Source: Sipunculus nudus
Lineage: Eukaryota; Annelida; Sipuncula; Golfingiida; Sipunculidae
DNA: 64,000 bases
Reading direction: 5' to 3'
Assembly (NCBI GenBank): GCA_026874595.1
Contig: CM049316.1
Span: forward strand, 50,973,676-51,037,675
The position numbers and the translations under genes are program-made. The notes beneath the pieces are model-generated. The model was not told where the DNA came from, ran no database searches, and saw nothing but the letters and a program-made list of their open reading frames with translations. How positions within the stretch are numbered: the stretch's first letter is position 1; every line of letters begins with the position of its first letter. This document shows, piece by piece, positions 590 to 62,146 of this stretch.

Positions 590-1598
590 ATCATATGAGG
601 AGTGTGATTTTCACCATATATGGCAATATTCAAGGTCAAGGCCACTCACATAGGAAAGGTCATGACCCCAATTTAAATAACCATCATCCCATAACCCATA
701 CCTATGTATATGCATAATATAAAAGAAATCTGTCCATTAGTTTTTGACTTATAATGCTCACAGTACTGTAAGGTGGCAATTTTGGGAGTATTAAACGGCA
801 TGAAAACAAGTAAAGAATAATAGGTGGCGCCACCAGTTTCTGGAACATGACAACCCTATCCATGATCTTCCATCAACTTGATTTTAGGATAAACCTATGC
901 AAGATTTCTTGAGATATTAAAGAATTTGTGTGATTTTCCCCAAAATTGGACCTATTCAAGGTCAAGGACACTCTCCTAGTAAAGGTCATGACCTCATTTT
1001 AAATAGGCGTCGTCCTCTTACCCATATCTATACATATACCAAGTTTGGTAAAGTTCCTTGAAATATTTTTTGGGTTATCGCGCCAACAAGATTTATATGC
1101 GGCGGCGGCGGGACCGGTATGAAAACATAGTATCCCCCGACTTTGTCTGGGGATACAATGATTGCAGAAGGCGACCCCAGTCTTATAAGTAAAAGATGGA
1201 GGAGTCCAAGATCTATGGATATGCACAATTTCAGGCCAATAGGACAAGTCACTCATCATTAAAGGGCATTAATTTATTCTTCAAAAAATGGGATGGTAGG
1301 TGGCGCCACCTGTCTGGTTGACAAGAAAACTTTCAAAGATGAATGGACATGCCAAATTTCAGACCAATACCTTGAACCACTTCAGAGATATGAGCAATTT
1401 CCACTGAAAGCAAACATACGGATGGACTCCACACAATAACGATTGCAGATAGCGCCACCAGTCTTGAATACAAGATGGAGGTATCAAAGATCAATGGACA
1501 TGCACAATTTCTGCCAAATCTGTCCATTAGTTTTAGACTTATACTGCACATAGTACTGTCAAGTGGCAATGATGGATAATTATAAGGCCTGAAAAAAA
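590..1598 (+). repeat. Family A mosaic of GGTGGCGCCACC core modules
   Basis: Diverged core-module repeats. Exact GGTGGCGCCACC sites lie at 823-834 and 1299-1310. The phrase around 'CTGTCCATTAGTTTTTGACT' occurs at about 731 and 1521 and again at 37900, past the gypsy insertion. A hairpin of the B-element 3' type (GTATCCCC...GGGGATAC, 1130-1156) lies inside. The block is interrupted at 1599 by the F element and resumes at 3471. No gene seen. Confidence 0.75.
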
Positions 1599-1604
1599 CT
1601 AGAT

Positions 1605-1632
1605 GTGTCGGAACGACACGAATGCCCCCGCC
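1605..1632 (+). other. F element 5' hairpin and subterminal word
   Basis: A 6-bp perfect stem, GTGTCG/CGACAC, with a 3-nt loop is followed two bases later by ATGCCCCCGCC. The latter pairs with the 3' end of the element. Confidence 0.7.
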
Positions 1633-1984
1633 TGGGGCAAATAAGAAACATTTGTTAAATTTTGTAAATTTTTTTAAGTTCAGGAAGTGTTGTATGGTCA
1701 AAAGTAGGTCAACAAGGGCAAAATGCAAACTCGATCTGTAAAGGGTCAAACTCAAGCAACACACCAAAAATCAGGCCAGTATCTGCAAGCATTGTGAAAA
1801 AAAGTCCATATATGTGCATTTTTCATGAAAATTTCTGTCTTTCATGAAATTTTCTATGTTCAGGATCTGTCATATGGTGAAAAATAGGTTAACTGGGACG
1901 AAACGCGAACTCGATCTGTAAGTGGTCATTATGCGCCCACAAACCAAACATTAGGCCAGTATCTGTAAGCATTGCATTGCGAAA
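1633..1984 (+). repeat. Two diverged units of the 180-bp repeat
   Basis: The phrases GGTCAAAAGTAGGTCAAC, AACTCGATCTGTAA and CACCAAAAATCAGGCCAGTA recur in the same order as in the regular array at 2661-3380, with many substitutions. The second unit is cut at 1984 by the nested element and the array resumes near 2653. Confidence 0.75.
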
Positions 1985-2652
1985 CTAGAATATTAGCAAA
2001 AGTTGATAATCATTTATAAATTTAAATTGGAGAGGTATATACCATGTTTCATAACAATCTACCAAATGCTTCCTGAGAAATAAGCTCCTAAGTTTTTTTC
2101 TATACTAAGCTCTGTGACCTTGAAAAGTAGGTCAAGATCACCCATTTTTGAACTTGACCAAGATTTTGTAAATATAATGCAATAGGACTGAAGAAATGAA
2201 GTTCCTGTGTTGAATACCTTTGGAGATATCCTGCACAAAAGGCCAAAATTGAAAAAATCCAATAAAATTTCATTAAAAAATCAGAAATTGCAGGTGGCGC
2301 CACAAAATTGTGCAGCACATACAGACCATCAGTCCCAATGATCATAGTAAGTTTTGTGAAAATCCACACAATGGTTCCTGAGATATAAACTTCTGAGTGT
2401 TTTTCTATAATCAGCTCTAAAATGTAGAAAAATGGGTCAAGATCACCCATCTTCGAACTTGACCGAGATTTTATCGATATACATCTTCACTGTTGAAATA
2501 AAATTCCAACAGTGAATCCTTTTAGAGATATCCCGCTCACAAGGTAAAAGTTAACAGACGTGGAACGGACGGATGGACGGACAGACACCAGACAGACAGA
2601 TGGACAGCTTGGGTGACGAAAATAGCCCATCAGCCTATGAGCTGAGGGCTAA
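1985..2652 (+). mobile_element. Nested Helitron-like element in the 180-bp array
   Basis: It interrupts the array unit between '...GCATTGCGAAA' and 'AACGGCTGTACATG'. Uninterrupted units nearby read GCATTGCGAAAAAAAGTCC then GTACATG. The 3' end is an imperfect hairpin (AGCCC-ATCAG ... CTGAGGGCT) followed by CTAA, the CTRR-type Helitron terminus. Two internal units of about 290 bp share the phrase 'GTCAAGATCACCCAT', and GGACGGATGGACGGACAGAC lies just before the hairpin. One degenerate core palindrome is at 2293. It starts CTAGAAT, like the B elements. Confidence 0.6.
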
Positions 2653-2660
2653 AAACGGCT

Positions 2661-3380
2661 GTACATGTGTATTCGTCATGAAAATTTCTATTTTTCATGA
2701 ATTTTTCTAAGTTTAGGAGCCGTAAAACGGTCAAAAGTAGGTCAACGGGGACGAAACACGAACTTGATCTGTAACTGGTCAGTATCTGCCCACACACCAA
2801 AAATCAGGCCAATATCTGCAGGCATTGTGAAAAAAAGTCTGTACATGTGTATTTGTCATGAAAATTTCTATTTTTCATGAAATTTTCTAAGTTTAGGAGC
2901 CGTAAAACGGTCAAAAGTAGGTCAACCGGGACGAAACGCGAACTCGATCTGTAACTCGGCATTATCTGCCCACACACCAAAAATTAGGCCAATATCTGCA
3001 GGCATTGCGAAAAAAAGTCCGTACATGTGTATTTGTCATGAAAATTTCTATTTTTCATGAAATTTTCTAAGTTTAGGAGCCGTAAAACGGTCAAAAGTAG
3101 GTCAACCAATACGAAACGCGAACTCGATCTGTAACTGGTCTATATCTGCTCACACACCAAAAATCAGGCCAATATCTGCAGGCATTGTGAAAAAAAGTCC
3201 GTACATGTGTATCTGTCATGAATATTTCTATTTTTCATGAAATTTTCTAAGTTTAGGAGCCGTAAAACGGTCAAAATTAGGTCAAACGGGAAGAAACGCG
3301 AACTCGATCTGTAACTGGTCTATATCTGCCCACACACCAAAAATCAGGCCAATATCTGCAGGCATTGCGAAAAAAAGTCT
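2661..3380 (+). repeat. Four exact-length 180-bp tandem units
   Basis: GTACATGTGT recurs at 2661, 2841, 3021 and 3201, and the next boundary (GTACAACTGT) is at 3381, giving four units of exactly 180 bp with no net indels. Each unit contains CGTAAAACGG, GTCAACCGGGACGAAACGCG-like and GGCCAATATCTGCAGGCATT blocks. Differences are scattered substitutions. Confidence 0.9.
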
Positions 3381-3470: not shown

Positions 3471-3523
3471 AAAACAAGAAAAGGACACAAGGTGGTGCCA
3501 CCTGTCTTCCGCATATGACAAAG
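3471..3523 (+). repeat. Family A resumes; ends at gypsy target site
   Basis: The sequence continues family A with the module palindrome in its TG form (3491-3502) and then the 5-bp target CAAAG (3519-3523). The same host repeat carries on at 37695 after the gypsy element. Confidence 0.75.
3519..3523 (+). other. Gypsy target-site duplication, left (CAAAG)
   Basis: The five bases immediately before the 5' LTR equal the five bases immediately after the 3' LTR. Five bp is the usual Ty3/gypsy duplication. Confidence 0.85.
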
Positions 3524-4146
3524 TGTTCTGTGGTTCTGAAGAGACGTTGATGACGTCGGGGGTCCTACAGGTTACTGGTTGTGAGGACACAGGAGAACAC
3601 AGGGGGACAATTGAAGGGAGAGCGTTGAAGCATAACACCACAGAAGACAACAGACAAACATGGGACTCTTTATATTAACTGGAACTTGTTTCTTTTGTGA
3701 ACGGTACAAAGTCACGTCATCTATTAAAGCATCACATGCCCGATCCAGTATGGGCTGCAATTATTATTTGAACTGTCGTGGTGCTCGCCAGGCCTGGTTT
3801 TGGACATTTGAACTTTGTTTCGTTTGAGGATGGACTTTTTATCGTGAAAGGCTCCTATGCAGCCCCAGGGGCCGTGCCTGCACTTAAATTACCGGTATAC
3901 TCGCACTCGCACTATGTGATCTATTGATTGGAGGCACTCCTACTACACTTCATTTTGAGCTAAGTATTCTATAATATGGGTGTCTCGCTTGGACAGACTC
4001 ACATTTTATGTAAACCAAACATTGTGTATTCTTGTATAAATTGTACATAATGATTTGTCTATTAAAAATATTATCATTTAAAGAGTCTTTCTTCAGTTGT
4101 GTTGGTTGCATGTGGAACCCGGTTGAAAGTTTAGTTACACGTAACA
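3524..4146 (+). repeat. Gypsy 5' LTR
   Basis: A 623-bp repeat of 37085-37694, beginning TGTTCTGTGG and ending CACGTAACA. The homologue at the right has a clear TATATAA box near 37228, which is altered here (TTTATATTAAC). Internal indels against the other LTR include an extra ACCGGTATACT-like segment near 3890. Open frames on either strand here are not genes. Confidence 0.9.
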
Positions 4147-4152
4147 TAGAAA

Positions 4153-4170
4153 TGGGGGCTTGTCTCTTTG
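4153..4170 (+). other. Probable primer-binding site
   Basis: TGGGGGCTTGTC lies six bases after the 5' LTR. Its first eight bases match the start of tRNA-Pro-type primer-binding sites known from retroelements, and the later bases diverge. The tRNA assignment is inference. Confidence 0.5.
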
Positions 4171-4386
4171 CTTTTCTCTTTGGCTCGTTTTTTTAGGGGT
4201 ATGAATTGGGGTCAGGTCAGTCATCTCTGACATTTTTAGGATTGTTTTGTATTATACTGTGTATGGGTTCACTATAGTTTTTGGAAACACGAAAGACTCG
4301 TCGTATAGTGTCATGTATTAATGGGAGATTCCACTGTGTAAAGTTATAATTATACGGTCTTTGTCATTTGAATATTGTCTGTCATA

Positions 4387-5305
4387 ATGGATATTGACAA
4401 ATTTATAGAAAATCCTACCAGTAAGGTCTTAGACCAAATGAAAAAGGTTGATTTATTAGAAACATGTGACAAATTAGAGATAGATGGAAAACAGTCTATG
4501 AGAAAAACAGAACTGAAAAGAAATATTGTGGATTATTTTGTGGATAATGATATACTTGACCCTTCGGTTCTGGATTTATATCCATATGAAATCCTTTAAG
4601 GTGCTGACTCTAAACAATCTGAGTATCAACTAAAATTAAAAGAATTAGAATTAAGAGAAACTAGAGAGATGAAATAATTGGAATTTCGAGAATTAGAATT
4701 GAAATTAAAATTAGCAAACTCTGGGGAAGAAAAAGGAAAATCTGCTAGTGTTAGAGTTTTAGACCCTAACAGGTACATAAAATTGGTCCCTGTATTCAAT
4801 AGAGATATAGATAAATTCTTCCAACATTTTGAAAAAGTAGCCGAAAGTCTTGAGTGACCAGTTGAGTTATGGTCTATTTTGATACAGAGTGTACTTACGG
4901 GAAAAGCTCAAGAGGTATATTCGGCATTATCTAAAGAGGATTGTTCAAATTATGTCATCTGAAATCTGCTGTACTTCATGTGTATGAATTAGTACCAGAA
5001 GCTTACAGACAGAAGTTTCGAAATTTGAGAAAACATTGGAGTCAGTCACATGCTGAATTTGCTCATGATAAAGAAGTGCTTTTTGAGAAATGGTGTAACT
5101 CAAAAGAAGTGAATTCAAATTATGAAAAACTTAAGCACTTGTTATTAGTTGAAGAATTTAAGAAATGTGTTAGAGATGATATTAAGACATACTTAGATGA
5201 GAAAGAAGTAACATCGTTACCACAAGCGGCAAAATTTGCTGATGAGTTTGCTTTAACTCATAAACACAAATTTGATAGACCTAGAGAAGTTGGTTTTGTT
5301 AAACC
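4387..5305 (+). pseudogene. gag: Gypsy gag pseudogene (SCAN-like capsid region)
   Basis: The first ATG at 4387 opens a frame that begins MDIDKFIENP and is rich in K/E/L. It is broken by TAA at 4597, TAA at 4675 and TGA at 4855, then shifts frame near 4950. The last part (to about 5305) contains GKAQEVYSAL, followed in the new frame by VYELVPEAYRQKF and AQSHAEF-like text, the style of Gmr1-like capsids related to the vertebrate SCAN domain. The protein stops after residues ending FVKPNK, where an HA element begins. A nucleocapsid zinc knuckle is not visible. It would have packaged element RNA in the cytoplasm. Confidence 0.75.
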
Positions 5306-5310
5306 AAACA

Positions 5311-5340
5311 AGGCCTACAGGCCTATTGCGAACCTGTGCA
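5311..5340 (+). other. HA1 5' terminus
   Basis: AGGCCT is repeated with an AC spacer, followed by GCGAACCTGTG, the 5' subterminal word of the family. The same ends are at 8211, 14117, 49282, 55857 and 60407. Confidence 0.75.
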
Positions 5341-5850
5341 TATGGATATACACCAGGTATAACGCTTCAATGCTGAACCACTACTTTTCATATATATGAA
5401 CAATGCAAGTACTAAACATCTGAACAAGAAACAATACACAAACATCACTGCTGAAATTCTCGCATGGGTGCACACAACACAAAAATAATTGTAGGTGGCA
5501 CCACCAGTCTTGTATACAACAAAGCTATTTGACATGTATAAATATGCCCAATTTCAGGCTGATATATCAAATTCCTCCGTAGAATTAAGCAGGCACATAC
5601 ACTTTGCAAAAGTCATTGCAGATGGCGACACCTGTCTTGTGAACGAGAAAGCCATTAAAGACACATAGACAGGTCAGAATAACAGGCCAATACATCAAAC
5701 TTACCTTGAGTCTGATGCATGGGGCTGACCAGGCTGTTGCCCCGTGTGTACTGTGACAAATTACTGGCTCAGGCTACTGCACTGAGTGAACTCTTGACCT
5801 GCACCTGGCTAGACTGAGTGAACTTCTGACCTGTACCTGGCTGCACTGAG

Positions 5851-6494: not shown

Positions 6495-7179
6495 TGAACT
6501 CTTGATCTGTTGCCAAATCTGAAACAGTTGGCAGTTCCTCAACCTATTCAAGAAACATACACAATCTTGGCCTGTTATGTAACTCTGCTAAAATTTATCA
6601 AACACAAACCATTTGAACAAACTTGAGAGGGCTAGCCTCTGGGATCATTTCTGTAAATTTCTGACTGTTTAGAAGAATAAGACTTTTAAAGTTTTTTTCA
6701 GCTTTTTCCCTGTAAAATCTAAGTAAATACAGATAGCAAAAATAAGCTGAATCCATCAACATTTATTTTGTGACAGATAATTGCATGAAATTTGGGGATG
6801 GTAGCTCCTGCTATTCCTGAGAAATTATGAGTTAGTGTACACATGATATCTAATATCATAAATCTACATTTTTACAAGCTTTTAAAAAACATTCTTGTCA
6901 ATATTTTCCATAGATAACCTGAAATCTAAATGTCTAGAGGCATGATGTAATGGGTGCTGATAAACTGGTGCTAGGCTAGATGTATCTGCTTCACACAGCT
7001 AACATGTATGGTAAAATGACTCAATTCAATCTTTATAAATCAGTCAAAATTCATTCTTTGGAACCATAAAAGAGGATTATTATAAGAATTATTCAGGGAA
7101 TTATTCTTGCAAAATATTAAACAAACTGGCCTCAGTATCATCAGTCAAACGTTTTGTAGGTTTATAACTCATATGGGAA

Positions 7180-7960: not shown

Positions 7961-10900
7961 ACCAACACTGGCATAAAATTTGGTGATGTTAGCTCCGGCC
8001 GTTTCTGAGATTGTCATTTTAGTGTGCTTTTTTGGACAGATGACTAAGTTCAACTTCCTGTAACTCGGCCAAAATTCACCGAACTTGAACCATTCGAACA
8101 AACTTGAGAGAGATGGTAGTAAAGATTATTTCTGTGAAATATTGAATAATTTGGCTTGACAGTTTCGGAGGAGAAGACTTTTTTAAGGTTTTTAGCTTTT
8201 TTTCTTAACAAGGCCTACAGGCCTAATGCGAACCTGTGCATTGGGAAATACACCAGATATAATGCTTCAATGCTGGACCATTATTTTTCAACTATGCAAG
8301 TACTAAACATTTTGAATAAGAAACAATAACACAAACATCACTGCTGAAATTCTGGCATAGGTGCACACAACACTAAAAAGATTGTAGATGGCACCACCAG
8401 TCTTGTATACAACGAAGCTATCAGAGATATATACATACGCCCAATTTCAGACTAATATATATAAAACCTCTCCTGAGAAAAACGTGTGCAAAAGTCATGG
8501 TAGGTGCAACACCTGTCTTGTGAGCGAAAGCCATCAAAGAGATATAGACAGGTCAAAATATTAGGCCAATACATCAAACTTACCTTGAGTCTGATGCATG
8601 AGGCTGACAAGGCTTAGGTGAGAAAGGCTGTTGGCCCGAGTGAACTGTGACAAATTGCTTGCTCAGACTACTGCACTGAGTGAACTCATGACCTGCACCT
8701 GGTTAGACTGAGTGAACTTTTGACCTGTACCTGGCTGCACTGAGTGAACTCTTGACCTGTTGCATAATCTGACACAGTTGGCAGTCTGCCAAAGCTATAA
8801 ATAGAATGCAGCTACTGCAATGAGTAAACTCCTGACCCATACCTGGCTGCACTGAGTGAACTCTTGACCTGTTGCCTAATCTGATACAGTTGACAGTCTG
8901 CCAAAGCTATAAATAGATCCAGACTGACCTCTAGCCTGTTGCCAAATCTGAAATAGTAGCCACACCATTGCATAAGTTCATGCAGGGGCCCTGCCCTGAG
9001 GGGCTTGACACCCATGAAGTGATCACATGGTGCCCATGAGGTGTTCACATGTCACCCATGAGGTGATCACATGCCATGTGCTTGGCTGCACTGATTGAAC
9101 TCTTGACCTATATCTGGCTGCACTGAATGAACTCTTGATCTGTTCCCAAATCTGAAACAGTTGGCAGTTTCTCAACCTATTTAAAGATACAGATTCAATC
9201 TTGGCCTGTTGGTATATCTGTTTACACATACTGAAAGACTTTGGTTAAAATTTCTTTTTTCAAGCCGACATATTCATAAACTTTTTATCAAAATATCTAG
9301 AATAATAAAATATGCAGTACTTTCATTGTTAAAGGTCCAATAGTTCTGCCAAAAATCATTCTAGTAAACTTGAACAAAGGCCACCTAAGAATAATTTTTG
9401 TGCAATGTTACAGAAGATATAATTGAAATAATAATTTTGTAGAAGAACACTATTGCAGTTCTCAGTTTGAAAAAGACATAATAATGGCCATAAGACCAAC
9501 TTAAGCTTTTCACAACTCAACCAAAAACAACAAACTCAGTATATTCTGATATGATTGAAAGAACCATGTCCTAGGATAATTCTTTTGAAAAATTGAACAA
9601 TTCAACTTGACAGTTTCATCATTAAGCTGAAAGAGGCTAAAATTATGAGCTTTTTTTGCCCATAAAAAACAGGTCAATGTAGGTGGCACCACTAAATCTA
9701 CAACTTCAAATATGAGTTATGTGACCAACATTTGCACAATACCTGGTAATGCTAGCTTCTGTCATTTCTAAGATTACTATGTCAGTATGCTTACTTGGCC
9801 AAATGACTGTTCAAATTTGTGTAACTCCACTAAAATTCATCAAATGCAAACCATTTGAACAAACTTGAGAGGGCTTGCCTCTGGGATCATTTATGTAAAA
9901 TATTGAACAATTTGGCTGGACCATCTACAAGAAGACAACTTTTAAAATATTGTCAGCTTTTTCCTTATAAAATCTAAGTAAATGCAGATAGCAAAAAAAT
10001 AAGCTGAATCCCACAAAATTTGATATGTGACAGATTATTGCATAAAATCTGGGAAAGGTAGCTCCTGCTATTCCTGAGAAATTATGGATTAATGTACAGA
10101 TGACCAATGATCCCCATACAAAAATAGGTCAATTCAGGTGGCGCCACCAATACCTGAATTTCATATATGACTCATGTGACCAACACTGGCAAAAAATTTG
10201 GTGATGATAGCTCTGGCTGTTTCTGAGACTGTCATTTCAGTATGCTTTTTTTGACAGATGACTAAGTTCAACTTCCTTAACAAAATTGAGGGAGATGGTA
10301 TAAAAGATTATTTCTGTGAAATATTGAACAATTTGGCTTGAGTGTTTCGGAGGAGAAGATTTTTAAAGGTTTTTTTAAGCTTTTTCTCTATAAAATTTAA
10401 GAAAATTTTCAGATGGCTAATTTTTTGCATTAAATTTCATGATGCTAGCTCCAATCATTTTCAAAATAGTATGGGTAAACGTACAGAAGTCAAACGCAGC
10501 CACACCATCGCATTAGTTCACAGGTTCACTAAAAATGAATACAGATGCATATTGAATGCAAAATTGTAATACAGATACATCTCCCTGATGGCAAAATCTT
10601 GAATTAATTTGACTATGGTTACCAATTATTTATAATCCATGTACAACCGTCTTTATATATCCACAGAGAGCTGTATAGCTGTGATTGTAAACATTGCCTG
10701 GCATGAGGAATATCTAAAAATCATAAATCTACACTTTTTAAAAGCTTTTAAAAAACATTCTTGTCAATATTAACCATAGATAACCTGAAATCTAAATGTC
10801 TAGAGGCATGATGTAATAAATGCTGATAAACTGGTGCCAGTCTAGATTATCTAGATGTATCTGTGTATCTGCTTCACACAGCTAACATATATGGTAAAAT

Positions 10901-14114: not shown

Positions 14115-14643
14115 CAAGGCCTACAGGCCTCATTTGAACCAGTGCAATAAGATTATAACCAGGTATAATGCTTCAATGCTGGACCATTACTTTTCAAGAA
14201 CATGTGTAACATGTATATGATCAATCCAAGTACTAAACACATAGAACAAGAAACAAACAAACATCACTGCTGCAATTCCGGCATGGGTGTACACAACACA
14301 AAAACTAGAATATAGGTAGTCAACAAGGGACTACCTGTATCTGCCAAAATCAGAGTGGGAAAGGTGAAGTGAGGCATGGATTGAGTGGCAAGGGGAAATA
14401 GAGTGAGGTGAGTTGCATAATAGCCTGGATGTTTGCAGCCAAAATGTGTATGTAGGTTGCGTCACCTACAGGGTTCATACACTTATCATGAGAAAAATTT
14501 CAAGCACTTATCAAGCACTTTTCAAGGACCTGAAAAGTATTTTCAAGGACATCAAAAGTTATGGACCGTCAGAGCTCCCTCACCCATGCATGTTGCCGAC
14601 ATTGAAACTCTTATAACACAAAATGCAATATAATATTTATAAG

Positions 14644-15553
14644 TAGAATACGGGTAGTCGACAAGCGACTATGTGTCTCTGCCAAAATCAGAGAAGGACG
14701 GGTGAAGTAAGGCATGGATTGAGCGGCAAGGGGAAATAGAGTTACATGTGTTACATATTAGAATGGATCTCTGCCACATAAACATGATTGTAGGTGGTGC
14801 CACCTGTATTTGAACGAGATACGATCCAAGATGTATACACATGCAAAATTTCATGTGGAAAAGTCAAACCACTGCAGAGATATGAGTGATTTTATCCCAC
14901 AGCAGACAAACAGATGGACGCTGTGCAAAAATGGCTGCAGGTGGCTCCACCATTTTTGTGTATGTTATAAAGCTATCCCAGGGCTACATTTGTGTAAAAA
15001 TTTTTTCCTGATTGGTCAAACGAGTCCGGAGATATAAGCATAAATGTCTGCAGCGTGAATGTGAATGTAGGTGGCACCACCTGTCATAAAATCAAGGAAG
15101 CTATGCGGGATGTATACACATGCAGAATTTAAGGTAATTTGGTCAAACCACTGCAGAGATATGAGTGATTTTAACCTAAGGCAGACAAACAGATGGACGC
15201 TGTGCAAAAATGGCTGCAGGTGGCGCCACCATTTTTGTGTATGTTATAAAGCTATCCAAGGGCTACATTTGTGTATAATTTTTTGCCTGATTGGTCAAAC
15301 GAGTCTGGAGATATGAGCTTGGATGTCTGCAGCTTTAAAGTGAATGTAGGTGGCACCACCTGTCATAAAATCAAGAAAGCTATCTAGGATGTATACGCAT
15401 GCAGAATTTTAGGTGCATTAGTCAAACCACTGCAGAGATATGAGTGATTTTAACCCAAGGCAGATGAACAGATGGACACTATGCAAACATTGTTGCAGAT
15501 GGCGCAAACTTTTTTGTGTATGTTATAAAGCTATCCAAGGGCTACATTTGTGT
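14644..15553 (+). mobile_element. B1b: B-family fragment with core-module array
   Basis: It starts TAGAATACGGGTAGTCGAC with the GTAGTCG/CGACTA hairpin. Alternating modules follow, headed by palindromes at 14793, 15070, 15219 and 15349 (about 130-150 bp apart). Each module carries 'GATGTATACACATGC' or 'ATGTTATAAAGCTATCC' and 'CACTGCAGAGATATGAGTGA'. The 3' end is missing and is joined to an HA 3' fragment. Confidence 0.7.
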
Positions 15554-15806
15554 ACATTGGACAATTTGGCTGGACAGTTTCGGAGAAGAAGATTTTAAAA
15601 CTTTTTTAGCTTTTTCCCTATAAAATCTAAGAAAATGCAGCTAGAAAAAAAATAAGCAAAATCCGATATAGTTTTTTGGATGACTGATTATTTGCAAAAA
15701 ATTTGGTGATGCTAGCTCCTGCCGTTTTTGAGATAGCTATGGTTCACGTACATACGACGCACGATGTACGACTCCGCACCATTGCATAAGCTCACAGGTT
15801 CGCTAA
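15554..15806 (+). mobile_element. HA 3'-end fragment
   Basis: It begins within 'GGACAATTTGGCTGGACAG' and runs through 'TTTTTCCCTATAAAATCTAAG' to GCATAAGCTCACAGGTTCGCTAA. No matching 5' end is adjacent. Confidence 0.7.
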
Positions 15807-16450
15807 TAATGCAACCCACAGGTAAACTGAAAAACCTTTAACCAAAACAAAGTCAGATCGGGTTCGTTGGGGAAATATGACCCCTCTGATATAATTATTA
15901 TCGCCGAGTTACCAATGTAAAACCTAAAGTTAACTTGATTTAAACAACATATTCTACTGAGCGAATTACTTTTATATTATTATTATCCTTCAGATTCGAA
16001 TTGTTCCCATCATGTATTTTTCACACATTTTATTCCCCTGGTTTGTTCCCAGATAATTATTTCATTTGGACAGATCTTCTCAATAGCTATATCAATAATC
16101 ATTGTAGTATTACATTTCAATTTAAATTATAAATCTTGCGAAAATACTTACGTGAACCCGCCGAGCGTGTATTGAGTTTTCAATTAAAGAGCTTTTATAC
16201 GTACCTCGGGGGAAATCTCCGCGATCTATAGAGTAAAGCAGCTCACTTAGTATTTGATAAGAAGCATGGTTATTACTCTCGTATGTTAACCTGTTACACC
16301 GTTTTTTTCACCGCCCAGTCTCATTCATCCAAGATTGGGTTCATTCTATTTCATACATTTGATTGACGTAGAGATGCCCGAAAGTCGATATTAAAATACA
16401 AGGTATGCATAAACACTACATACACCAAACTCTTTCACAAAATTTTATTT
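15807..16450 (+). other. Interior of hAT-like element, no gene seen
   Basis: AT-rich sequence with no module palindromes and no recognisable transposase motif. It is the least repetitive part of the element. Confidence 0.4.
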
Positions 16451-16562
16451 TTCAAGCATTTTTCCAAACCACTCTCTCTTTTTAAGCACTTGTTCAGCCC
16501 TTTAAATTGAAATGACTAAATTCAAGCACTTTTTAAGGTTTTCAAGGTGCGTACTAACCCTG

Positions 16563-17177
16563 ACCTACCACAAAATCCAGAAAGCTGTCCTAGATGTATA
16601 AACATGCAAAATTTTAGGCAGAGAAGTCAAACCACTACTGAGATATGATTGATTTTAGCCCACGGCAGACAAACAGGCGGACGCTGTGCAAAAATGGTGG
16701 CAGGTGGCACCACCAATTTTGTGTGTGATTAAGAGCTATGTGAGTTCTATACACATGCACAATTTCAGGGGGATATGTCAAACCAGTCCTGAGATATAGG
16801 CCTGAATGTCTGCAGCATATACATAAATGTAGGTGGTGCCACCTGCCATAAAATCAAGAAAGCTGTCCAGGATGTATACACATGCAAAATTTCAGGTGGA
16901 TAAGTCCAACCAATGCAGAGATATGAGTATTTTTATCCCAAGGCAGATGAACAGATGGATGCTGTGCAAAAATAGTTGCAGGTGGGCAGAGAGGAAAGAT
17001 CTGAGTTCAACCAAAAATGAGGGCGCAGCAGTTCGCATGTGACCGATCATAATTCCGAATTTTAAAAAATTCTGCCCAGTGGTTATGGAGGAGTTCTCCG
17101 GAAACCTATGCAGCGATGGCGGCAGCGTCTGCATCCGACTGAAAACATAGTATCCACAAAACTCCGTTTTGGCGAAT
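16563..17177 (+). repeat. B1 core modules, right part
   Basis: Module palindromes are at 16703 (CA form) and 16832 (TG form), and a third is truncated near 16979. The segment ends with AAAACATAGTATCC ... TTTTGGCG, the B 3' terminal hairpin in degraded form. Confidence 0.7.
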
Positions 17178-18066
17178 AAAATGATTGTAGCTGGCACCAC
17201 CTGTCTTATATACAAAGAAGAGATATATACATATGCCCAATGTCAGACTGATATGTCAAACCCCCCCTGTGAAATAAGCAGGGACATACACTGTGCAAAA
17301 ATTATTGTATGTGGCGCCACCAGTCTTGTACACTATAAAGCTACCCGATATGTATAAACATGCCCAATTTTAGGCTAATGTATCAAATTCCTCTGTAGAA
17401 ATAAGTAGGCGCATACACTGCAAAAGTCAGGTGGCACCACCTGTCTTGTAAATGAGAATACCATCAAAGATGCATAGACAGGTAAAAATATCAGTCCAAT
17501 ACATCAAACTTCCCCATAGTTTAATGCACTGGGCTGACAAGGCTTAGGTAAGGCAGTTGCCCCTGAGTGACCTGTGACAAATTGCTGCCTCAAGCTACTG
17601 CACTGAGTAAACTCTTGACCTGCACCTGGCTAGACTGAGTGAACTTTTGACCTGTACCTGGCTGCACTGAGTGAACTCTTGACCTGTTGCATAATCTGAC
17701 ACAGTTGGCAGTCTGCCAAAGCTATAAATAGATTCAGGCTGAACTTTGGTGCCAAATATGATGCAGTGAGCAGTCTGCCAAAGCTATAAATAAAATGCAG
17801 CTACTGCACTGAGTGAACTATTGACCTATACCTGGCTGCTATTCTTCCAACCCTGGCACTGTGCCAAAAATATTTATAGAGCTGACATCATCTTGGCTAA
17901 TGGCCAACATCAAGGCACTGGCAATCTGCCAATGGTAAACCAAGTGCTGCCATCTGTACACAAAAGTGGTCCCTACTTGAAATAACTTTGAAATTTATTT
18001 TCCCAATACAAAATGCTTTTCAGCTTTTTTTTTTATAAAAAAAAGAAATCAGGAATATATGTAAAA
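17178..18066 (+). mobile_element. HA3 middle block
   Basis: It resumes HA sequence with palindromes at 17191, 17310 and 17430, then 'CTGACACAGTTGGCAGTCTG' units. C1 cuts it after ...ATATATGTAAAA. The block continues at 32280 with TTATTACGGATGC. Confidence 0.7.
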
Positions 18067-21078: not shown

Positions 21079-21576
21079 AGGGACCCATGGGTCACGGCGC
21101 TCAGCTGATCGTGATTGGACTATAAATGTTTCTCCACTGTGATCCTATATCTAGACGATAAAGCTTGTGAATATCATGTACATGTTGGGCTATTATAAAG
21201 GAATTTAATGTAATATGTGAGTAAATGAAAAATGAAATTACCTGACTGATGGATTAATAGAGTCAAATAAAGTGGTTTATTTTTTATTTATTTAGGAGGG
21301 GTTGAAAATTGTGATATATTTGAGCAAATATGAATGCAATGACAGCAGTAATAAGCAGTAGTAGAATGGTAGTCTGCAAGCGTTCAATTTGACAGATATG
21401 ATGTTATGATTAACTATGCTAATGAAGTGATTTATGAATATGTGACTGTATGACACAATATCTCTTTAGTCTTGACAATGTACATTATTGTGATGCCCAC
21501 TATGTCTACATATTACACAATATTGACATAATTTCTGGCATGTACATAGGTACCTATGGACAAATAGTCATACAAA

Positions 21577-22550
21577 CTAGAATACGGGTAGTCGACAAGC
21601 GACTACGTGTATCCGCCAAAATCAGAGAAGGACGGGTGAAGTAAGGCATGGATTGAGTGGCAAGGGGATATAGAGTTACATGTGTTAAATATTAGAATGG
21701 ATCTCTGCCACATAAACATGATTGTAGGTGGCGCCACCTGTTATTTGAAACTATCCAAGATATATACACAAGCAAAATTTCATGTGGAAAAGTCAAACCA
21801 CTGCAGAGATATGAGTGATTTTATCCCACAGCAGACAAACAGATGGACGCTGTGCAAAAATGGCTGCAGGTGGCACCAACATTTTTGTGTATGTTATAAA
21901 GCTATCGAAGGGCTACATTTGTGTCAAAAAATTTTCCTGATTGGTTGAATGAGTCCAGAGATATAAGCATGGATGTCTACAGTGTGAACGTGAATGTAGG
22001 TGGCGCCACCTGTCATAAAATCAAGAAAGCTATGCGGGATGTATAAGCATGCTGAATTTCAGGTAATTTGGTCAAACCACTGCAGAGATATGAGTGATTT
22101 TAACCAAAGGCAGACAAACAGATGGATGCTGTGTAAAATGGCTGCAGGTGGCGCCACCATTTTTGTGTATGTTATAAAGCTATCCAAGGGCTACATTTGT
22201 GTAAATTTTTCTTCCTGATTGGTCAAACGGTTCCCGAGATATGAGCTTGGATGTCTGCAGCGTTAACGTGAATGTAGGTGGCACCAACTGTCATAAAATC
22301 AAGAAAGCTATCTAGGATGTATACGCATGCCGAATTTTAGGTGAATTAGTCAAACCACTGCAGAGATATGAGTGATTTTAACCCCAGGCAGATGAACAGA
22401 TGGACACTGTGCAAACATGGTTGCAGGTGGCGCCACCTTTTGTTGTGTATGTTATAAAGCTATCCCAGGGCTACATTTGTGTAAAAATTTTGTTTTGCGG
22501 AACCCGGTCAAAAACATAGTATCCGCAAAATTTTTTTTTGGCGGATACAA
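21577..22550 (+). mobile_element. B2: complete 974-bp B element
   Basis: E2 has the uninterrupted site (TACAAAATATTAAAG at 38513-38527), so the insert is exactly defined apart from an A-run ambiguity. The 5' end is CTAGAATACGGG, hairpin GTAGTCG-acaag-CGACTAC, then TGTATCCGCCAAAA. The 3' end is a hairpin, GTATCCGC...GCGGATAC, with TTTTGGCGGATAC complementary to the 5' word. Inside are six modules headed by the palindrome family (21727, 21869, 21999, 22147, 22276, 22426). It is the best reference copy of family B. Confidence 0.9.
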
Positions 22551-41194: not shown

Positions 41195-42221
41195 CTAGAA
41201 TACGAGTAGTCGACAAGCGACTAAGTTTTAAAGCGACTAAAATTTTAGGCAGATAAGTCAAACCACTACTGAGATATGAGTGATTTTATCCCACAGCAGA
41301 CAAACAGAAGGACTTGTGCTAAAATGGTGGCAGGTGGCGCCACCAATTTTGTGTATGATTAAGAGATATGTGAGATCTATACACATGCAACATTTCAGGG
41401 GTATATGTCCAACCAGTCCTGAGATATAAGCCTGAATGTCTGCAGCGTTAACATAAATGTAGGTGGCACCATCTGCCAAAAAATCAAGACAGCTATCCAA
41501 AATGTATAAACATGCAACATTTTTAGGCAGATAAGTCAAACCACTACAGAGATATTATTGATTTTAGCCCACGTCAGACAAACAGACAGACGCTGTGCAA
41601 AAATGGTTGCAGGTGGCCCCTCCAGTTTTGTGTATGATAAAGAGCTATGTGAGATCTACACACATGCAAAATTTAAGCCCAATCGGTCAATCAGTTCCCG
41701 AGATATGAGCTTGGATGTCTGCAGCGTGAACGTGAATATAGGTGGTGCCTATATTATATTACATGCCTTAAAATCGAGAAACCTATCCAGGATGAATACA
41801 CATGCAAAATTTCAGAGGGATAAGTCCATACACTTTAGAGAGATGAGTGATTTTTTATCCCAAGACAGATGAACAAATGGACACTTTGCAAAAATTGTTG
41901 CAGGTGGCGCCACCATTTTTATGTATGTTATAAAGCTATTTAAGGGCTACATTTGTGCAAATTTTTTTTTTTTCCTGATTGGTCAAACGAGTCTGAAGAT
42001 ATGTGGGTTTATGTGTCAAAACAGATGAACAGATAAATGCACTGGAGAGAGGAAAGGTCAGAGGTCAACACAAAATATTTTGGCACCAGTTTACATGTGA
42101 CCCAATAATTGTATATCATTTCGGAAAAATCTGTCCAGTGGTGTCAGAGTTCTATTCCGAAACCGAACGCGGCAGTGGCAGCGGAAACATAGTATCCACA
42201 AAACTTTGTTTTGGCGGATAC
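41195..42221 (+). mobile_element. B3: B-family element
   Basis: It starts CTAGAATACGAGTAGTCGAC and ends TTTTGGCGGATAC. Modules are headed by palindromes at 41333 and 41903 (exact) with degenerate ones near 41461, 41612 and 41741. The 3' hairpin is GTATCCACAAAAC...TTTTGGCGGATAC. The 5' subterminal word is degraded. Confidence 0.85.
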
Positions 42222-43837: not shown

Positions 43838-44899
43838 AGTGACCCATGGGTCATGTCCTTGCACAGACAACTAATTAAGATAGGTGGCATCATTGTTCAT
43901 GCATATTAGCTTATTTTCATCAAGACCCATAAGCACAACAAATTTGATGACAATCCAACCAGCCTTTCATGAGGAATCTGGCAATTTGTGTGTATTTTCC
44001 ATTGTTTCTGGGGTGCTCAAACATACCCCCAAAACTGAGAATATATGTCACTGTGACTTAATTTTAGGTTTCCGGGGAGAACTTTTGAGGAACTCTCAGG
44101 ATGTTAAGTTAGAAGATTCTGGGCCCCATGGTTATGATTTGTGCCCTAGTTTGGTATAAAATTTTCAATTATTCTGAGGGGTGCTTATAAGCCCCGTAGC
44201 TCAGAAAATATGGGTAACAGAGGCCTTAATTCATGTTTCCAAAGAGACTTTTCACAGATCTCCCTGGATGTCAAGTTTGAAGATTCTAGGACCAATGGTT
44301 ACAATTTGAGCCTTATTAAGGGATGACCGCATCTTTGAAGGTCTCACAAATAGAGAAAAAAATGTGTTAAAATTTTTTTTTAATTTAGGTGGTGCCACCG
44401 GTCTGCAAGAACTGATGAAACACATACTTCAGGATGAATATGCATGCAAAGAATCAGGGTGATCAATGCAATAGTTGTTCAGATACTGGAGCTTTTGTAT
44501 CACATTTTTAGTTATTCTGGGAGGTACTTCTAAGCCCCATAGCTCGGAGGATATGGGTAACAGAGACCTAATTTCAGGTTTCCATGTAGTTTTTATGGAC
44601 CTCCCAGGATGTCAAGAAAGTAGATTCAAGGTCAAATAGTTATGATTTGTGCCCTGTTAACAGACGACCACATCTTTGAAGGTCTCAAAAATAAAGATAA
44701 AAATGCGTAAAAATTCAGAGAAGTCAAGATGGCACCACCAGTCTGCAGGAACTGATGAAACACTCCATGATGCATAAGCATGCAAAGAATAATGCCGATC
44801 AATGCACTAGTTGTTCAGGTACCAGAGCTTTTGTATCAAAAATTTAGTTATTTCTGGGGAGTACTTCTGAGCCCAACCCTTACGAAAATGGAAAGTACT

Positions 44900-45870: not shown

Positions 45871-45872
45871 TA

Positions 45873-55026: not shown

Positions 55027-55856
55027 AAAAATTTTCAGAATGACAGTTCTGTGATCTTAACCAATGACCTTGTGACCAAAATATCTTAGAACTTAATATC
55101 CTTGAACTAGCAGCATTAGGATTATTGTAACAATCTTTTCAAAAGTGACCATGACCTATGAACCAAAAATCAAACAGTATCTTCCCCTAGTGGCAGGTTA
55201 GCAATTTCTTGAAGATGGAAGGTTTGCGATGGAAAGTTTGGCTTCAAATGGATACACATTCCTTTTAAAGAAATGGGTCCTGTGACCTTGACCTTTGACC
55301 GTTGGACCCCAAAATTGACATGATTCTTACTTTAGTGGGGACCATTTATAAGTTAAGTTTGAAACCAATATGTCAAACTAAACTGGGGTTATCATCTGGA
55401 AACTAATTTGTGAACAGATGGCCCCTGTGACCTTGACCTTTGACCTTGTGACCCAAAATTAATTTATGCTCTCCCCATATTGGCAAGTCAGCTAAATGCC
55501 CAAGATGGAGAGTTTGGGATGAAAAGCTTGGCTTAAAATGCAGCCATAATCTTTTTTATTAAGTGAGTCCTCTGACCTTGACCATTGACCTAATGACCCC
55601 AAAATCATAAAGGTCTTGCTTTTGTGGTGGGCCATGTGTAAGTCAAGTTTGAAATCCACGTGCCAATCCAACCTGGAGTTATCATCTGGAAACAAATTTG
55701 TGTGGATGGACAGACAGACGTACAAACAAACAGACAGACAGGGTGATAGGGAATCTACTTGTGATCAATAAACACACCAGGTTTTGGGACACCAGATGTA
55801 ATCACAGCTGAGAAACTGACATGATTGTTGTCATTTTATTGTAAATAAATAGAACA
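55027..55856 (+). repeat. TGACC-family repeat, copy 2
   Basis: Units with GTGACCTTGACCTTTGACC at about 55283, 55428 and 55573 (145-bp steps) and the phrase 'TTATCATCTGGAAACTAATTTGTG'. The block ends with a GGACAGACAGAC tract near 55710 and about 120 bp of unassigned sequence before the next HA. Confidence 0.8.
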
Positions 55857-58800
55857 AGGCCTACAGGCCTAATGCGAACCTGTGCATATGGATATACACC
55901 AGGTATAACGCTTCAATGCTGAACCACTACTTTTCATATATATGAACAATGCAAGTACTAAACATTTTGAACAAGAAACAAAACACAAACATCACTGCTG
56001 AAATTCTGGCATGGGTGCACATAACAAAAAAATGATTGTAGCTGGCACCACCAGTCTTGTATACAACAAAGCTATCAGAGATATATACATATGCCCAATT
56101 TCACACTGATATATCAAATTCCTCCCTAGAATTAGGCAGGCACACACACTTTGCAAAAGTCATTGTGGATGGCGACACCTGCCTTGTGAACGAGAAAGCC
56201 ATTAAAGACACATAGACAGGTCAGAATATCAGGCCAATACATCAAACTTACCTAGAGTCTGATGCACGGGGCTGACCAGGCTTAGGTGGGAAAGGCTGTT
56301 GCCCCGAGTGTACTGTGACAAATTACTGGCTCAGGCTACTGCACTGAGTGAACTCATGACCTGCACCTGGCTAGACTGAGTAAACTTTTGACCTGTACCT
56401 GGCTGCACTGAGTGAACTCTTGACCTGTTGCATAATCTGACACAGTTGGCAGTCTGCCAAAGCTATAAATAGATCCAGGCTGAACTTTGGTGCCAAATCT
56501 GATGCAGTGGGAAGTCTGCTCATGCTATAAATAGAATGCAGCTACTGCACTGAGTAAACTCCTGACCTATACCTGGCTGAACTGAGTGAACTCTTGACCT
56601 GTTGCCTAATCTGATACAGTTATCAGTTTGACAATACTATAAATAGATCCAGGCTGACCTTTGGCCTGTTGCCAAATCTGAAATAGTAGCATCACCAATG
56701 CATAAGCTCTCAGATTGGCTTCACATGCAGCCCTGAGGAGCATGACATACATGAGGTGATCACATGATATTCATGAGTTGATCACATGCTACCTATGAGT
56801 TGATCACATGCCTTGTGCTTGGCTGCACTGACTGAACTCTTGACCTATATCTGGCTGCACTGAATGAACTCTTGATCTGTTGCCAAATCTGAAACAGTTG
56901 GCAGTTTCTCAACCTATTTAAAAATACAGACACAATCTTGGCCTGTTAGTAAATCTGTTTACACATACTGAAAGACTTTGGCTAAAATACTTTTTTTTCC
57001 AAGCTGACATATATATAAACTTTGTATCAAAATATTTAGAATAATAAAAGATGCAGTCCTTTCATTGTTAAAGGTCCAATAGTTCTGCCAAAAATCATTC
57101 AAGTAAATTTGAACAAAAGCCACCTATGAATAAATTTTGTGCAATGTTACAGAAAATATAATTGAAACAATAATTTTGTAGAAGAACACTATTACAGTCC
57201 CCAGTTTGAAATAAACATAATAATCGCCATAAGACCAATTTAAGCTTTTCAAGACTCAACCAAAAATCAACAAACTCAATCTATTCTGATATGATTGAAA
57301 GAACCATGTCCTAGGATAATTCTTTTGAAAAATTGAACTATTCAACTTGACAGTTTAATCACATACTTTTAAGCTGAAAAAGGCTATTATGAGTTTTTTT
57401 TGCCCATAAAATACAGGTCAATGTAGGTGGCACCACGAAATCTGCATCTTCAAATATGAGTCATGTAACTAGCTTCTGTCATTTCTGATATTACTATGTC
57501 AGTATGCTTACTTAGCAAAATGACTAAGTTCAAATTTGTGTAACTCTGCTAAAATTCACAAATGCAAACCAATTGAACAAACCTGAGAGGGCTTGCCTCT
57601 GGGATTATTTCTGTAAAATACTGAACAATTTGGCTGGACTGTTTACAAGAATGAGATTTTTAAAGGTTTTTCAGCTTTTTCCCTATAAAATCTAAGTACA
57701 TGCAGATAGCCAAAAAAATAAGCTGAATCCCACAACATTTGATATGTGACAGATTATTGCATAACATCTTGGGATGGTAGCTCCTGCTATTCCTGAGAAA
57801 ATATGGGTTAATGTACAGATGACCAATGACCTCTGTACAAAAAAAGGTTAATGCAGGTGGCACCACCAATACCTCAATTTCAGATATGACTCATGTGACC
57901 AAGAATTTGGCCCAGTGGTTTTTGAGAAGATCTTTGTAGCCACTGAGCTGAAATGGGCTGTTATGGCATATGACTAAATTCAGCTTCCCATAACTCAGCC
58001 AAAAGTCCCTGAACTGTCATCATCTGAACATCAGAAAGCACTACCCTAGGATCATTTCTGTGTGATATTAAACAATTTGGCCGTATGGTTTAAGAGAAGA
58101 AGGTTTTGTAGCCGTCAGTATGATACGGGCACTGATGACCCCAATACAAAAAAGGCCGATCCAGGTGGCGCCACCAATACCTCAATTTCAGATATGACTC
58201 ATGTGACCAAGATTGGCATAAAATTTGGTGATGATAGCTCCAGCCTTTTCTGAGATTGTAATTTTAGTATGCTTTTTTGGACAGATGACTCAGTCAACTT
58301 CCTGAAACTCAGCCAAAAATTACCGAACTGAAACCATTTGAACAAACTTGAGAGAGATGGCATAAGAGATTATTTCTGTACAATATTGAACAATTTTGCT
58401 GGACCTTTTCGGAGAAGAAGATTTTTAAAGCTTTTTTAGCTTTTTCCCTATAAAATCTAAGAAAATGCAGTTAGCCAAAAAATAAGCAAAATCCCATAGA
58501 GTTTTTTAGATGACTAATTTTGTGCATAAAATTTCGTGATGCTTACTCTTGCCTTTTTCAAGATAGTATGGGTTAACTTAGAGACGCCGGATGCCGGACG
58601 ACGCCACACCATCGCATAAGCTCACAGGTTCACTAAAAAAAATCAGGAATATATGTAAAATTATTACGGATGCATACTGAATGCAAAATTAAAATACAGA
58701 TATATCTCATTGATGGCAAATTCTTGAATTAAGTTGAGTAGGGATACCAATAATTCATAATCCACGTACAGTTGTCTTTATACAGCCACAGAGAGCTGAA

Positions 58801-60406: not shown

Positions 60407-60575
60407 AGGCCTACAGGCCTAATGGGAACCTGTGCAAGGTTTAGCAGTATGAATGGAGGTTTATTTTTAAAATTCAATACTGATCCTCTTAAGTCCTGCA
60501 TGTCTACCTTAGTCATTATGATTCAGCAAAATTGACGTTTCCGACCTGCAAGTTTCAGACTAGGACATTTTAAAA
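60407..60575 (+). mobile_element. HA6: 5' end only
   Basis: AGGCCTACAGGCCTAATGGG at 60407, then unrelated-looking sequence from about 60435 to the B4 start. Confidence 0.6.
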
Positions 60576-61038
60576 CCAGAATATGGGTAGTCGACAAGCG
60601 ACTATGTGTATCTGCAGAAATCAGAGTGGAAGGGGTGAAGTGAGGCATGGATTAAGTGGCAAGGGGAATAGAGTGAGGTGTGTTGCATATTAGCATGGAT
60701 GTCTGCAGCTTAAACATGAATGTAGGTGGTGCCACCTGTCATAAAATCTAGAAATTTGTCCAGGATGTATAAACCTGCAAAATTTCAGATGGATAAGGCA
60801 AACCACTGCTGAGATATGAGTGATTTTACCCTAAGGCAGAAGAACAGATGGACACTGTGCAAAAGTGGTTGCAGGTGGCGCCACCAGTTTCACCTATGAT
60901 GAAGAGCTATGTGAGATCTATACACAAGTAAAATTTTGGCCCAATCCGTCAAACGGTTCCCGAGATATGAGCTTAAATGTCTGCAGCGTAAACATGAATG
61001 AAGGTGGCCCCACCTGTCATAAAATCAAGAAAGCTGTC
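60576..61038 (+). mobile_element. B4: B-family element, 3' truncated
   Basis: Starts CCAGAATATGGGTAGTCGAC with the hairpin and TGTATCTGCAGAAA. Modules at 60725 (TG form), 60874 (exact) and 61004 (GGTGGCCCCACC). It breaks off at GAAAGCTGTC and joins HA sequence. Confidence 0.75.
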
Positions 61039-61195
61039 TGGCCAAGAAATTAGCAAAATCCAATAGAATTTTTTAGATGACTAAGTTTTTTCAAAAAATT
61101 TGGTGATGCTAGCTCCTGCCCTTTTTGAGATAGCTATGACGCACAACGGACGACAGAAGATGCCACACCATTGCATAAGCTCACACATTCGCTAA
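61039..61195 (+). mobile_element. HA 3'-end fragment
   Basis: 'TTAGCAAAATCCAATAGA' to GCATAAGCTCACACATTCGCTAA (CTAA 61192-61195). Confidence 0.7.
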
Positions 61196-61261
61196 AAATG
61201 CAAACCAAGTTTTTTCAAACAGTTGAAAGATATATTTCCAATAATTCTAATCTGGGCATTC

Positions 61262-61338
61262 TGCATCTAGATGATGTGTCCAGACGTCTAGATGCTGTGT
61301 CTAGATGTCTAGACACATTGTCTAGACACTAGACAGAG
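61262..61338 (+). repeat. TCTAGA/GTCTAGAC cluster
   Basis: Six or so overlapping copies of GTCTAGA/TCTAGAC within 77 bp, many palindromic, able to form alternative hairpins. Confidence 0.8.
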
Positions 61339-62146
61339 CCAGGTCAGTTGCCATGGTGATGTCTGGACCCCATTGGGTTGTACTGAGTGACCTCTTGACT
61401 TGACTGCTGAAACTCAGCATGTTGTCAAATCTGTTTTCAAACACAGAAAGCCTTTTACAATTGACTACACTGCTTTTTTAAAGCTGCATTTACCCAAACT
61501 ATTCTTATAAAACTGGCAGAACCCTACCATAGAATAATCCTTTTAAAGTTTAAATCAATCAGCTTAACAGTTTCTTAAAAAAACAGTTTATAAGCTAGAA
61601 GAGTCTAAACTTACATTTTTGCTTGTAAAAAACAGATCAATGTAGGTGGCGCCACCAACACCTCAATTTCAGATATGACTCATGTGACAAACATTGGCAT
61701 AAAATTTGGTGATGACAGCTCCAGCTGTTTCTGAGATTTTAAGTTTAGTATGCTTTTTTGTACAGATGACTAAGTTCAACTTCCTGTAACTCGGTCAAAA
61801 ATCATCGAACTGATACCATTTGAATAAACTTAAGAGAGATTGTTCCAAGCAACATTTCTGTGAACTATTGGACAATTTGGCTGGACAGTTTCAGAGAAGA
61901 AGATTTTTAAAGGTTTTTAAGCTTTTTCTATATAAAATCTAAATTACTGCAGATACTTAATAATAAGCTCTAGGGCACCAAGTTTCACATGTGACTAATT
62001 CTTACATGTAATTTGGAGCTGCTAGCTCTGACAGTTTCTGACTTACAGCCATGGACGGTGGAAAGCCAGCCCTGGATGGCGGACAGTGGACAGCGGACGG
62101 CTGATGGACGACGCTGCGCCATTGCATAAGCTCACAGGTTCGCTAA
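61339..62146 (+). mobile_element. HA fragment with 3' end
   Basis: HA-like phrases from about 61480, palindrome at 61645-61656, then 'GACAATTTGGCTGGACAG' and GCATAAGCTCACAGGTTCGCTAA (CTAA 62143-62146). No 5' end is adjacent. Confidence 0.75.

Follow-up and report, generated by a model that had tools for sequence, protein, structure and literature searches.

A 12-bp palindrome heads tandem modules in several repeat families of the Sipunculus nudus genome

The palindrome and its modules

The stretch analyzed here (the window; 64,000 nucleotides of Sipunculus nudus, assembly GCA_026874595.1, C11:50973676-51037675 of the 1.43-Gb genome) is repeat-rich, as seen by self-alignment and tandem-repeat analysis, and contains many copies of a 12-bp palindrome that head modules of several repeat families (A, B, C, G, H and K). 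None of its open frames exceeds 178 amino acids (aa). A tRNA search of the window found none, and comparison of the window with Rfam at the gathering score gave 0 matches, i.e., no known structured RNA. The ratio of observed to expected CpG is 0.42, with TpG and CpA in excess. A first-pass annotation of this DNA had listed 15 exact copies of the palindrome, and we recovered each of them at its listed position:

823 (spanning 823..834), 1299, 10137, 15219, 21727, 21999, 22147 and 22426, no strand assigned: first 8 of the 15 exact palindromes
33072, 41333, 41903, 58164, 59557, 60874 and 61645: remaining 7 of the 15

The many near-variants that it had mentioned are also present: 16 sites differ by one mismatch, and sites with ≤2 mismatches number 45 in the window, against a mean of 0.37 and a maximum of 2 in 100 dinucleotide shuffles. 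The CpG-deamination products GGTGGCACCACC (6) and GGTGGTGCCACC (6) account for 12 of the 16 one-mismatch sites. The annotation did not deal with carrier elements, orientation bias or genome-wide abundance, which are added here. In the whole genome (1,426,538,692 bases, 153 contigs), the exact palindrome occurs 111,729 times, versus 14 copies of the reversed palindrome string and 5 of a palindrome of the same composition, GTGGGCGCCCAC. As a random sample, we used twenty 10-kb regions at preset places (L010-L029); they contain 16 exact palindromes, matching the genome-wide density. Among the first 100 palindromes on C1, 52 of 99 gaps are shorter than 700 bp, and their length distribution has maxima at 129-131, 149 and 336 bp, indicating that palindromes head tandem modules. 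A and B modules alternate as 278-279-bp dimers, K modules recur at 336-341 bp, and the palindrome occurs once per module.

Families A, B, G and HA had been described in the first-pass annotation as following one plan. We analyzed their relatedness with models confined to the downstream flank, for which the training modules were A+B and then A+B+H. The A+B model found 5/5 H1, 2/4 H2, 1/7 G (E 0.038), 1/2 K (E 0.032) and 0/2 C modules; the A+B+H model found 0/7 G, 1/2 K (E 0.010) and 0/2 C. Judged by these flanks, A, B and H form one module family, to which the copies at 1160-1540 also belong. The common plan applies to A, B and H, whose modules align, but not to G, which has little beyond the palindrome. 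The flanks of G and C no longer align, or never did, and what these families have in common is the palindrome and the A preceding it. This A at position -1 is found in all families (94% in the 84-module tree set described below; 98% when weighted by family).

Carrier elements and their anatomy

The modules of the window lie in the following elements and arrays:

21574..22550, minus strand (Helentron 5'-to-3' reading): A-type HINE-like element with six modules (21727, 21869, 21999, 22147, 22277, 22426)
14642..15557, minus strand: A-type element, right side truncated (modules 14793, 14940, 15070, 15219, 15349, 15498)
14303..17180, minus strand: older A-type element (modules 16563, palindrome lost; 16703; 16832)
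5307..5737, minus strand: H-type element end with modules H1 (5494) and H2 (5621); the self-alignment begins at the H end AACAAGGCCTACAGGCCT
8207..8617, minus strand: H-type copy (modules 8387, 8503)
17184..17550, minus strand: H-type modules 17190, 17310 and 17430, lying to the right of the A-type insertion in the H element that it splits
55853..56285, minus strand: H-type copy (modules 56041, 56168)
41238..42030, minus strand: A/B module array (41333, 41462, 41612, 41741 with interrupted palindrome, 41903)
60720..61060, minus strand: A/B modules (60725, 60874, 61003)
1160..1542, minus strand: A/B-related modules (1167, decayed; 1299; 1448), detected by the A+B flank model
10137..10256, no strand assigned: G-type copy with exact palindrome, its flanks aligning barely or not at all with A/B/H
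7918, 9682, 33072, 57426, 57856, 58164, 59557 and 61645: further G copies
44388..44839, no strand assigned: K-type copies 44388 and 44728 (341-bp period), their flanks marginally related to A/B/H
823..931, no strand assigned: C-type copy whose palindrome is exact; its partner is at 40894

K-like modules are present also in the random regions L024 and L013.

The A-type carrier, read on the minus strand, has the anatomy of a Helentron/HINE, a non-autonomous rolling-circle transposon; this is demonstrated for the A-type only. According to the available text of a study of mite HINEs and DINE-1 (PMC4067079), HINEs have subterminal inverted repeats (subTIRs, measuring 12-15 bp in mites and 13 bp in DINE-1), the second lying ~38-60 from the end in mite HINEs, an inverted copy at a distance of 3-22 bp from the 5' subTIR, a stem-loop ~8-35 bp from the 3' end, a T-rich insertion site without target duplication, and central tandem repeats. 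The A-type element of the window has 14-bp subTIRs, TGTATCCGCCAAAA and TTTTGGCGGATACA; the young copy L047 has the 14 bp of TGTATCCGCCAAAA and their inverse, 10 bp are found in L027, and no inverted 8-mer was detected in the decayed copy L011. In the minus-strand reading the element begins TT-GTATCCGCC, with an inverted copy 13 nt inward. At the right end of both L027 and the window element this arrangement reads GTATCCGC, 13 nt, GGCGGATAC; in L011 this inverted copy was not predicted. A stem-loop, GTAGTCG-ACAAG-CGACTAC, starts ~14 nt in from the left end of both L027 and the window element; that of L011 is shorter. The 278-279-bp A/B dimers constitute the central tandem repeats. A TIR-type MITE (a miniature element with terminal inverted repeats) was rejected, because the inverted repeat is set in from the termini, by ~34 nt on the left and by 2 nt on the right.

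The left end, AAACTAG, is common to 10 young A-type copies (L038-L047) whose preceding sequence differs, with the exception of L042 and L046, which have the same left flank. In a genomic search, 26 of 40 scored matches begin at window positions 21570-21574, 12 of them at 21574. AAA precedes CTAG in 10/10 young copies and AA follows GGATAC in 4/4 mapped right ends; these terminal bases may belong to the element. The element at 14642..15557 is 92.9% identical to 21575-22483 by self-alignment. The older element at 14303..17180, itself broken up by other sequence, sits within an H element, in its A-tract directly upstream of the H palindrome, and provides a single comparison of filled ends (14283-14330 and 17148-17205) with unfilled H copies (5463, 8363, 56015 and L028): the target is an A-tract with no clear duplication, and the A-runs leave the cut ambiguous. 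By eye, the H-type with its AACAAGGCCTACAGGCCT end resembles the A-type at one end.

The A-type element is like HINE/DINE-1 (PMC4067079) in its subTIRs, the adjoining inverted copy, the stem-loop near the other end and the central tandem repeats. It differs from what the available text of that study describes in that the 12-bp dyad is common to repeats of several families, and in that the second subTIR, ~34 nt from the end, falls just under the published range. Similarly, Cg_HINE of the Pacific oyster (PMC7492417) contains short arrays of 138-181-bp repeats, and elements with unrelated flanks coexist in one genome. In the part of the oyster study available, the repeat cluster goes consistently with one flank pair, whereas in S. 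nudus alignable A, B and H modules lie between different ends. The pearl, DTC84 and CvA elements of bivalves (PMC5139131, PMC7492417) are likewise modular with tandem core repeats. Membership in the BIV160/Cg170/pearl satellite family was rejected: a primer-derived 21-mer of the BIV160 motif, searched genome-wide with 2 mismatches allowed, gave 2 matches versus 5 for the control. In a viral collection TRYAGGTGGCGCCACCWGT matched one contig, in which the 801 bases around the match lack the module. Two module patterns had 0 matches in viral contigs, one module pattern had 0 in genome contigs, and an A-type query in distant mode had 0 against phages and 0 against plasmids. Among the open-access papers searched, the palindrome string occurs in one, on an endochitinase, and titles and abstracts from the same collection yielded nothing on this dyad or on Helitron strand domains.

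Helitron_like_N has 143 matches genome-wide, some with open frames >2,000 aa. The Helitron-type element at C11:50376801-50390400 (L048, L033 and L049) has an open frame of 2,235 codons, the start of which is crossed by a 69-bp tandem repeat of ~15 copies. No autonomous partner with A- or H-type ends was found, one of the 143 matches having been inspected to its surroundings. HINE status does not require an autonomous partner with the same ends. In the oyster, the available text reports autonomous HINE partners as unresolved (PMC7492417).

Conservation and possible function of the palindrome

To collect modules by their flanks only, we used a downstream-flank model that excludes the palindrome and was trained on palindrome-bearing window modules. 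It gave 47 matches in the random regions, of which 46 were examined and 1 was dropped by position filters. A palindrome (≤3 mismatches) lay near the expected place in 42/46 of these modules, versus 0/46 for a control window 50-70 bp downstream. We also inferred a tree for 84 modules, using their flanks; the window supplied 43 of them and the random regions 41. On this tree, non-CpG palindrome columns showed 40 changes in 798 (0.050), versus 490 in 3,596 (0.136) for flanking G/C; 0/20,000 random ten-column flank sets and 0/116 contiguous windows were as conserved. When the tree was restricted to 57 modules (A/B/H1 flanks only), the counts were 30/549 for the palindrome and 334/2,645 for the flank, with 13/20,000 random sets and 0/117 contiguous windows as low. 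In both trees, non-CpG palindrome sites had 2-3 times fewer changes than flanking G/C sites, and across lineages no other block of ten columns in the aligned module is as conserved as the palindrome. The same was observed within families A, B and G, in which the non-CpG palindrome changed at 3/100, 5/110 and 0/72, versus flank values of 0.108, 0.149 and 0.148, respectively. The central CpG decays fast (CG in 41 of 84 modules, CA in 23, TG in 10). Both half-sites are constrained alike, with 21/399 changes in the left and 19/399 in the right on the 84-module tree.

The per-position check proposed in the first-pass annotation thus came out as predicted across lineages on both trees, the non-CpG bases of the palindrome exceeding their flanks in conservation. 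The selection that it had suggested from such conservation holds between lineages (40/798 versus 490/3,596, and 30/549 versus 334/2,645), but does not extend to the closest young copies. Its alternative, that modules are exchanged again and again, need not be invoked, because the remainder of the module diverges.

We then compared copies of different ages. In bins of pairs of falling identity, differences at non-CpG G/C sites of the palindrome were 0.059, 0.058, 0.076, 0.075 and 0.097, versus 0.108, 0.202, 0.263, 0.321 and 0.402 in 507 control 12-mers chosen by the same rule. In the 19 of 45 young A-type pairs with ≥93% identity (drawn from 10 copies, hence not independent), the palindrome differed at 63/1690 (0.037) and the flank at 0.029. 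In the older pair, 14641-15554 and 21575-22483, 5/6 palindromes differ. Equal decay of palindrome and flank, which the annotation had named as evidence against its proposal, was therefore seen in young inserted copies, but not between lineages. This combination suggests that selection acts on active elements rather than on inserted copies at their chromosomal sites, and that the constancy lies in the source lineages. A mutational cold spot is disfavoured by the about equal decay in the 19 closest young pairs.

On balance, we favour the reading that the palindrome is a putative cis-acting protein-binding site heading the central tandem repeats of several HINE-type Helentron-derivative families. 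A symmetric, probably homodimeric DNA-binding protein would read the double-stranded site. We infer that the simplest reader would be either a protein of transposition machinery common to these families, or a host factor needed by that machinery. Elements with too few good sites would leave fewer descendants; the site would stay constant in source elements, with drift in dead copies, at the element ends and elsewhere in the module. The array would tolerate some imperfect sites, and source elements appear to carry such sites. A dyad protein site fits best, given the equal constraint on the two halves and, as weak evidence, the lack of compensatory changes. Tandem repeats within Helentron derivatives are usually regarded as passive satellite seeds; those described here bear a site that shows the mark of selection acting on active elements. 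The 12-bp sequence, used as bait, offers a concrete handle toward the protein that mobilises or licenses HINEs.

Several observations weigh against a protein-binding site in active HINE-type elements. The single autonomous Helitron inspected, of 13.6 kb at C11:50.38 Mb, lacks the palindrome (3 mismatches allowed) as well as A- and H-type end motifs, and the palindrome is also absent (2 mismatches allowed) from 8 loci of ~3.5 kb each around Rep domains; a link to Helitron proteins is therefore unsupported. The target preference has a single filled/unfilled comparison behind it. Little or no protection is seen in H1, H2 and K, in which palindrome values are 0.080, 0.077 and 0.136 versus 0.140, 0.086 and 0.096 for the flanks. 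The young A-type copies, which contain from 4 to at least 11 palindrome-headed modules, have in common the subfamily-specific imperfect palindromes GGTTGCGCCACC, GGTGACGCCACC and GGTGGCGCCGCC, indicating that no single site is essential within the array. As to timing, the youngest bin (≥90% identity) still has fewer differences in the palindrome (8/136) than in control words (671/6,187), and 2 young pairs at 88-93% identity have 2/80 in the palindrome versus 0.078 in the flank; equal decay thus depends on the closest pairs. At face value, the 24 of 45 pairs below 88% identity go against our reading, with 0.210 in the palindrome versus 0.161 in the flank, but we set them aside because arrays of unequal length align out of register.

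It is unlikely, in our estimate, that the palindrome is instead a recombination or junction site, at which modules are cut and joined, building arrays and swapping modules between elements. Module number does differ between copies, and one array breaks within the palindrome, at ~16981 (by eye). In the available text on bivalve repeats (PMC5139131), the phBglII400 satellite also has a 12-bp palindrome in its monomer, which there marks junctions, 13/16 of them lying at it, and DTC84 has a conserved palindrome near its repeat junction; both are likened by description. However, the three other array ends examined here (~22490, 15557, 61041) fall outside the palindrome.

We give slightly less credence still to a CTCF-like host site, by which elements with AGGTGGCGC cores would recruit an architectural zinc-finger protein that aids expression or accessibility. 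AGGTGGCGC resembles the CTCF core. With an approximate matrix of the 19-bp CTCF motif, the two top sites of the window are B-type module sites (17.0 bits, 15210 and 22138), 15/49 modules score >8 bits and 6 score >10, and the window has 33 sites >8 bits versus 10.7 in Markov sequences; in addition, the A at -1, conserved at 94-98%, falls within the core. On the other hand, 34/49 modules score ≤8, the bases preceding this A are not conserved as CCA, and the CTCF site is asymmetric, in contrast to the equal constraint on the palindrome halves.

The absence of any function, with the palindrome merely what remains recognisable after recent common ancestry or homogenisation by gene conversion, seems improbable. 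The about even decay of the closest young copies and the mutual resemblance of modules within an array would be expected under it, but homogenisation would not be confined to 12 bp, the divergence of control words within these same modules reaches 40%, exact palindromes occur in G and C, whose flanks hardly or do not align, and the tree counts on 84 and 57 modules speak against it. Least credible of all is a single-strand hairpin or cruciform signal in rolling-circle replication: a perfect palindrome with equally constrained halves in rolling-circle-type elements would suit it, but the hairpin predicted for two examples is weak (-2.3 to -5.3 kcal/mol) and, after 6/84 gapped palindromes were dropped, compensatory changes numbered 0 among 46 changed pairs (25 left-only, 21 right-only), which disfavours it weakly because ~1.3 two-sided changes are expected by chance.

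Strand domains and other repeats

The repeats of the window share one orientation: 405/414 self-alignments are direct, and the modules found by an iterated model are on the plus strand, save a few weak minus matches (E ≥0.0056) that overlap plus-strand palindromes. Similarly, 12 of the 13 random regions that match the window do so on one strand throughout; at a looser cut-off, L018 has 3/77 matches on the opposite strand. Genome-wide, the end patterns are balanced between the strands (A, 1680/1623; H, 2976/3049; GGGACCC type, 2146/2269). The GGGACCC type is a third family, and its membership in the palindrome-module group is not assumed.

Agreement in orientation was taken from the first listed places on C1 (0-16.4 Mb) alone. 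The A list comprises 57 of 100 places, the A and GGGACCC lists were kept to <13.1 Mb against H since the lists end differently, and 188 rotated or mirrored label sets served as the null. The GGGACCC type lay on the same strand as the nearest H in 41/45 cases within 30 kb and in 54/62 within 100 kb (0/188 label sets as high). For A and the GGGACCC type, the agreement was 29/33 within 100 kb (0/188), and for A and H it was 16/19 within 30 kb (1/188) and 23/33 within 100 kb (7/188). Of these three families, the 44 copies listed first on C1 all lie on the plus strand. Coherence was seen in H-H comparisons, within a third family and between families; A-type places alone showed none, with 17/36 of the listed pairs on the same strand at 5-100 kb. 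Base skew in unmasked sequence did not clearly track orientation, and the patterns intended as orientation controls were too rare (LTR-end, i.e., long terminal repeat, 12 copies; TIR-element, 6 copies). By these counts, repeat families of different sequence face one strand over tens of kb to ~100 kb.

Such strand domains possibly arise from insertion into the lagging-strand template, or are tied to transcription. IS608-like bacterial transposons, which move as single-stranded DNA, follow replication direction, according to the available text (PMC5371812). If the domains are confirmed, old insertions would report fork or transcription direction in a genome lacking functional data. A broader proposal, which we put forward tentatively and hold to be less probable than a protein-binding site as such, is that several rolling-circle families with different ends depend on one dimeric trans-acting protein, that its 12-bp site would be among the commonest specific protein sites of the 1.43-Gb genome, and that insertion would be strand-specific, with tens of kb to ~100 kb facing one way and following the replication fork or transcription.

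Other repeats were also observed. Two LTR-like copies, 3520-4146 and 37081-37694, are 89% identical, in the same orientation and 33.5 kb apart; their end pattern has 12 genome-wide occurrences in all, and the first copy is followed by a decayed frame that, by eye, resembles a retrotransposon gag. The two are possibly one old LTR element filled by later insertions. At 25371-28735, the 10-bp unit ACCGAAAAGT forms inverted arrays separated by ~3.1 kb, an arrangement like that of a transposon whose termini are tandem repeats, and at 44904-49095 inverted arrays of an TATATGTGCCT-like 11-bp period lie ~3.7 kb apart. Repeats with TGACCTTTGACC words are found at 1-590 and 55180-55688, with related matches in L011, L017, L023 and L025; these words presumably resemble direct repeats of nuclear-receptor half-sites. 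Among the random regions, the entire 10 kb of L010 (C1:4000001-4010000) consists of a ~50-bp satellite, and L012 contains, at 3552-6500, a 51-bp array whose two strands both have long open frames (up to 976 codons).

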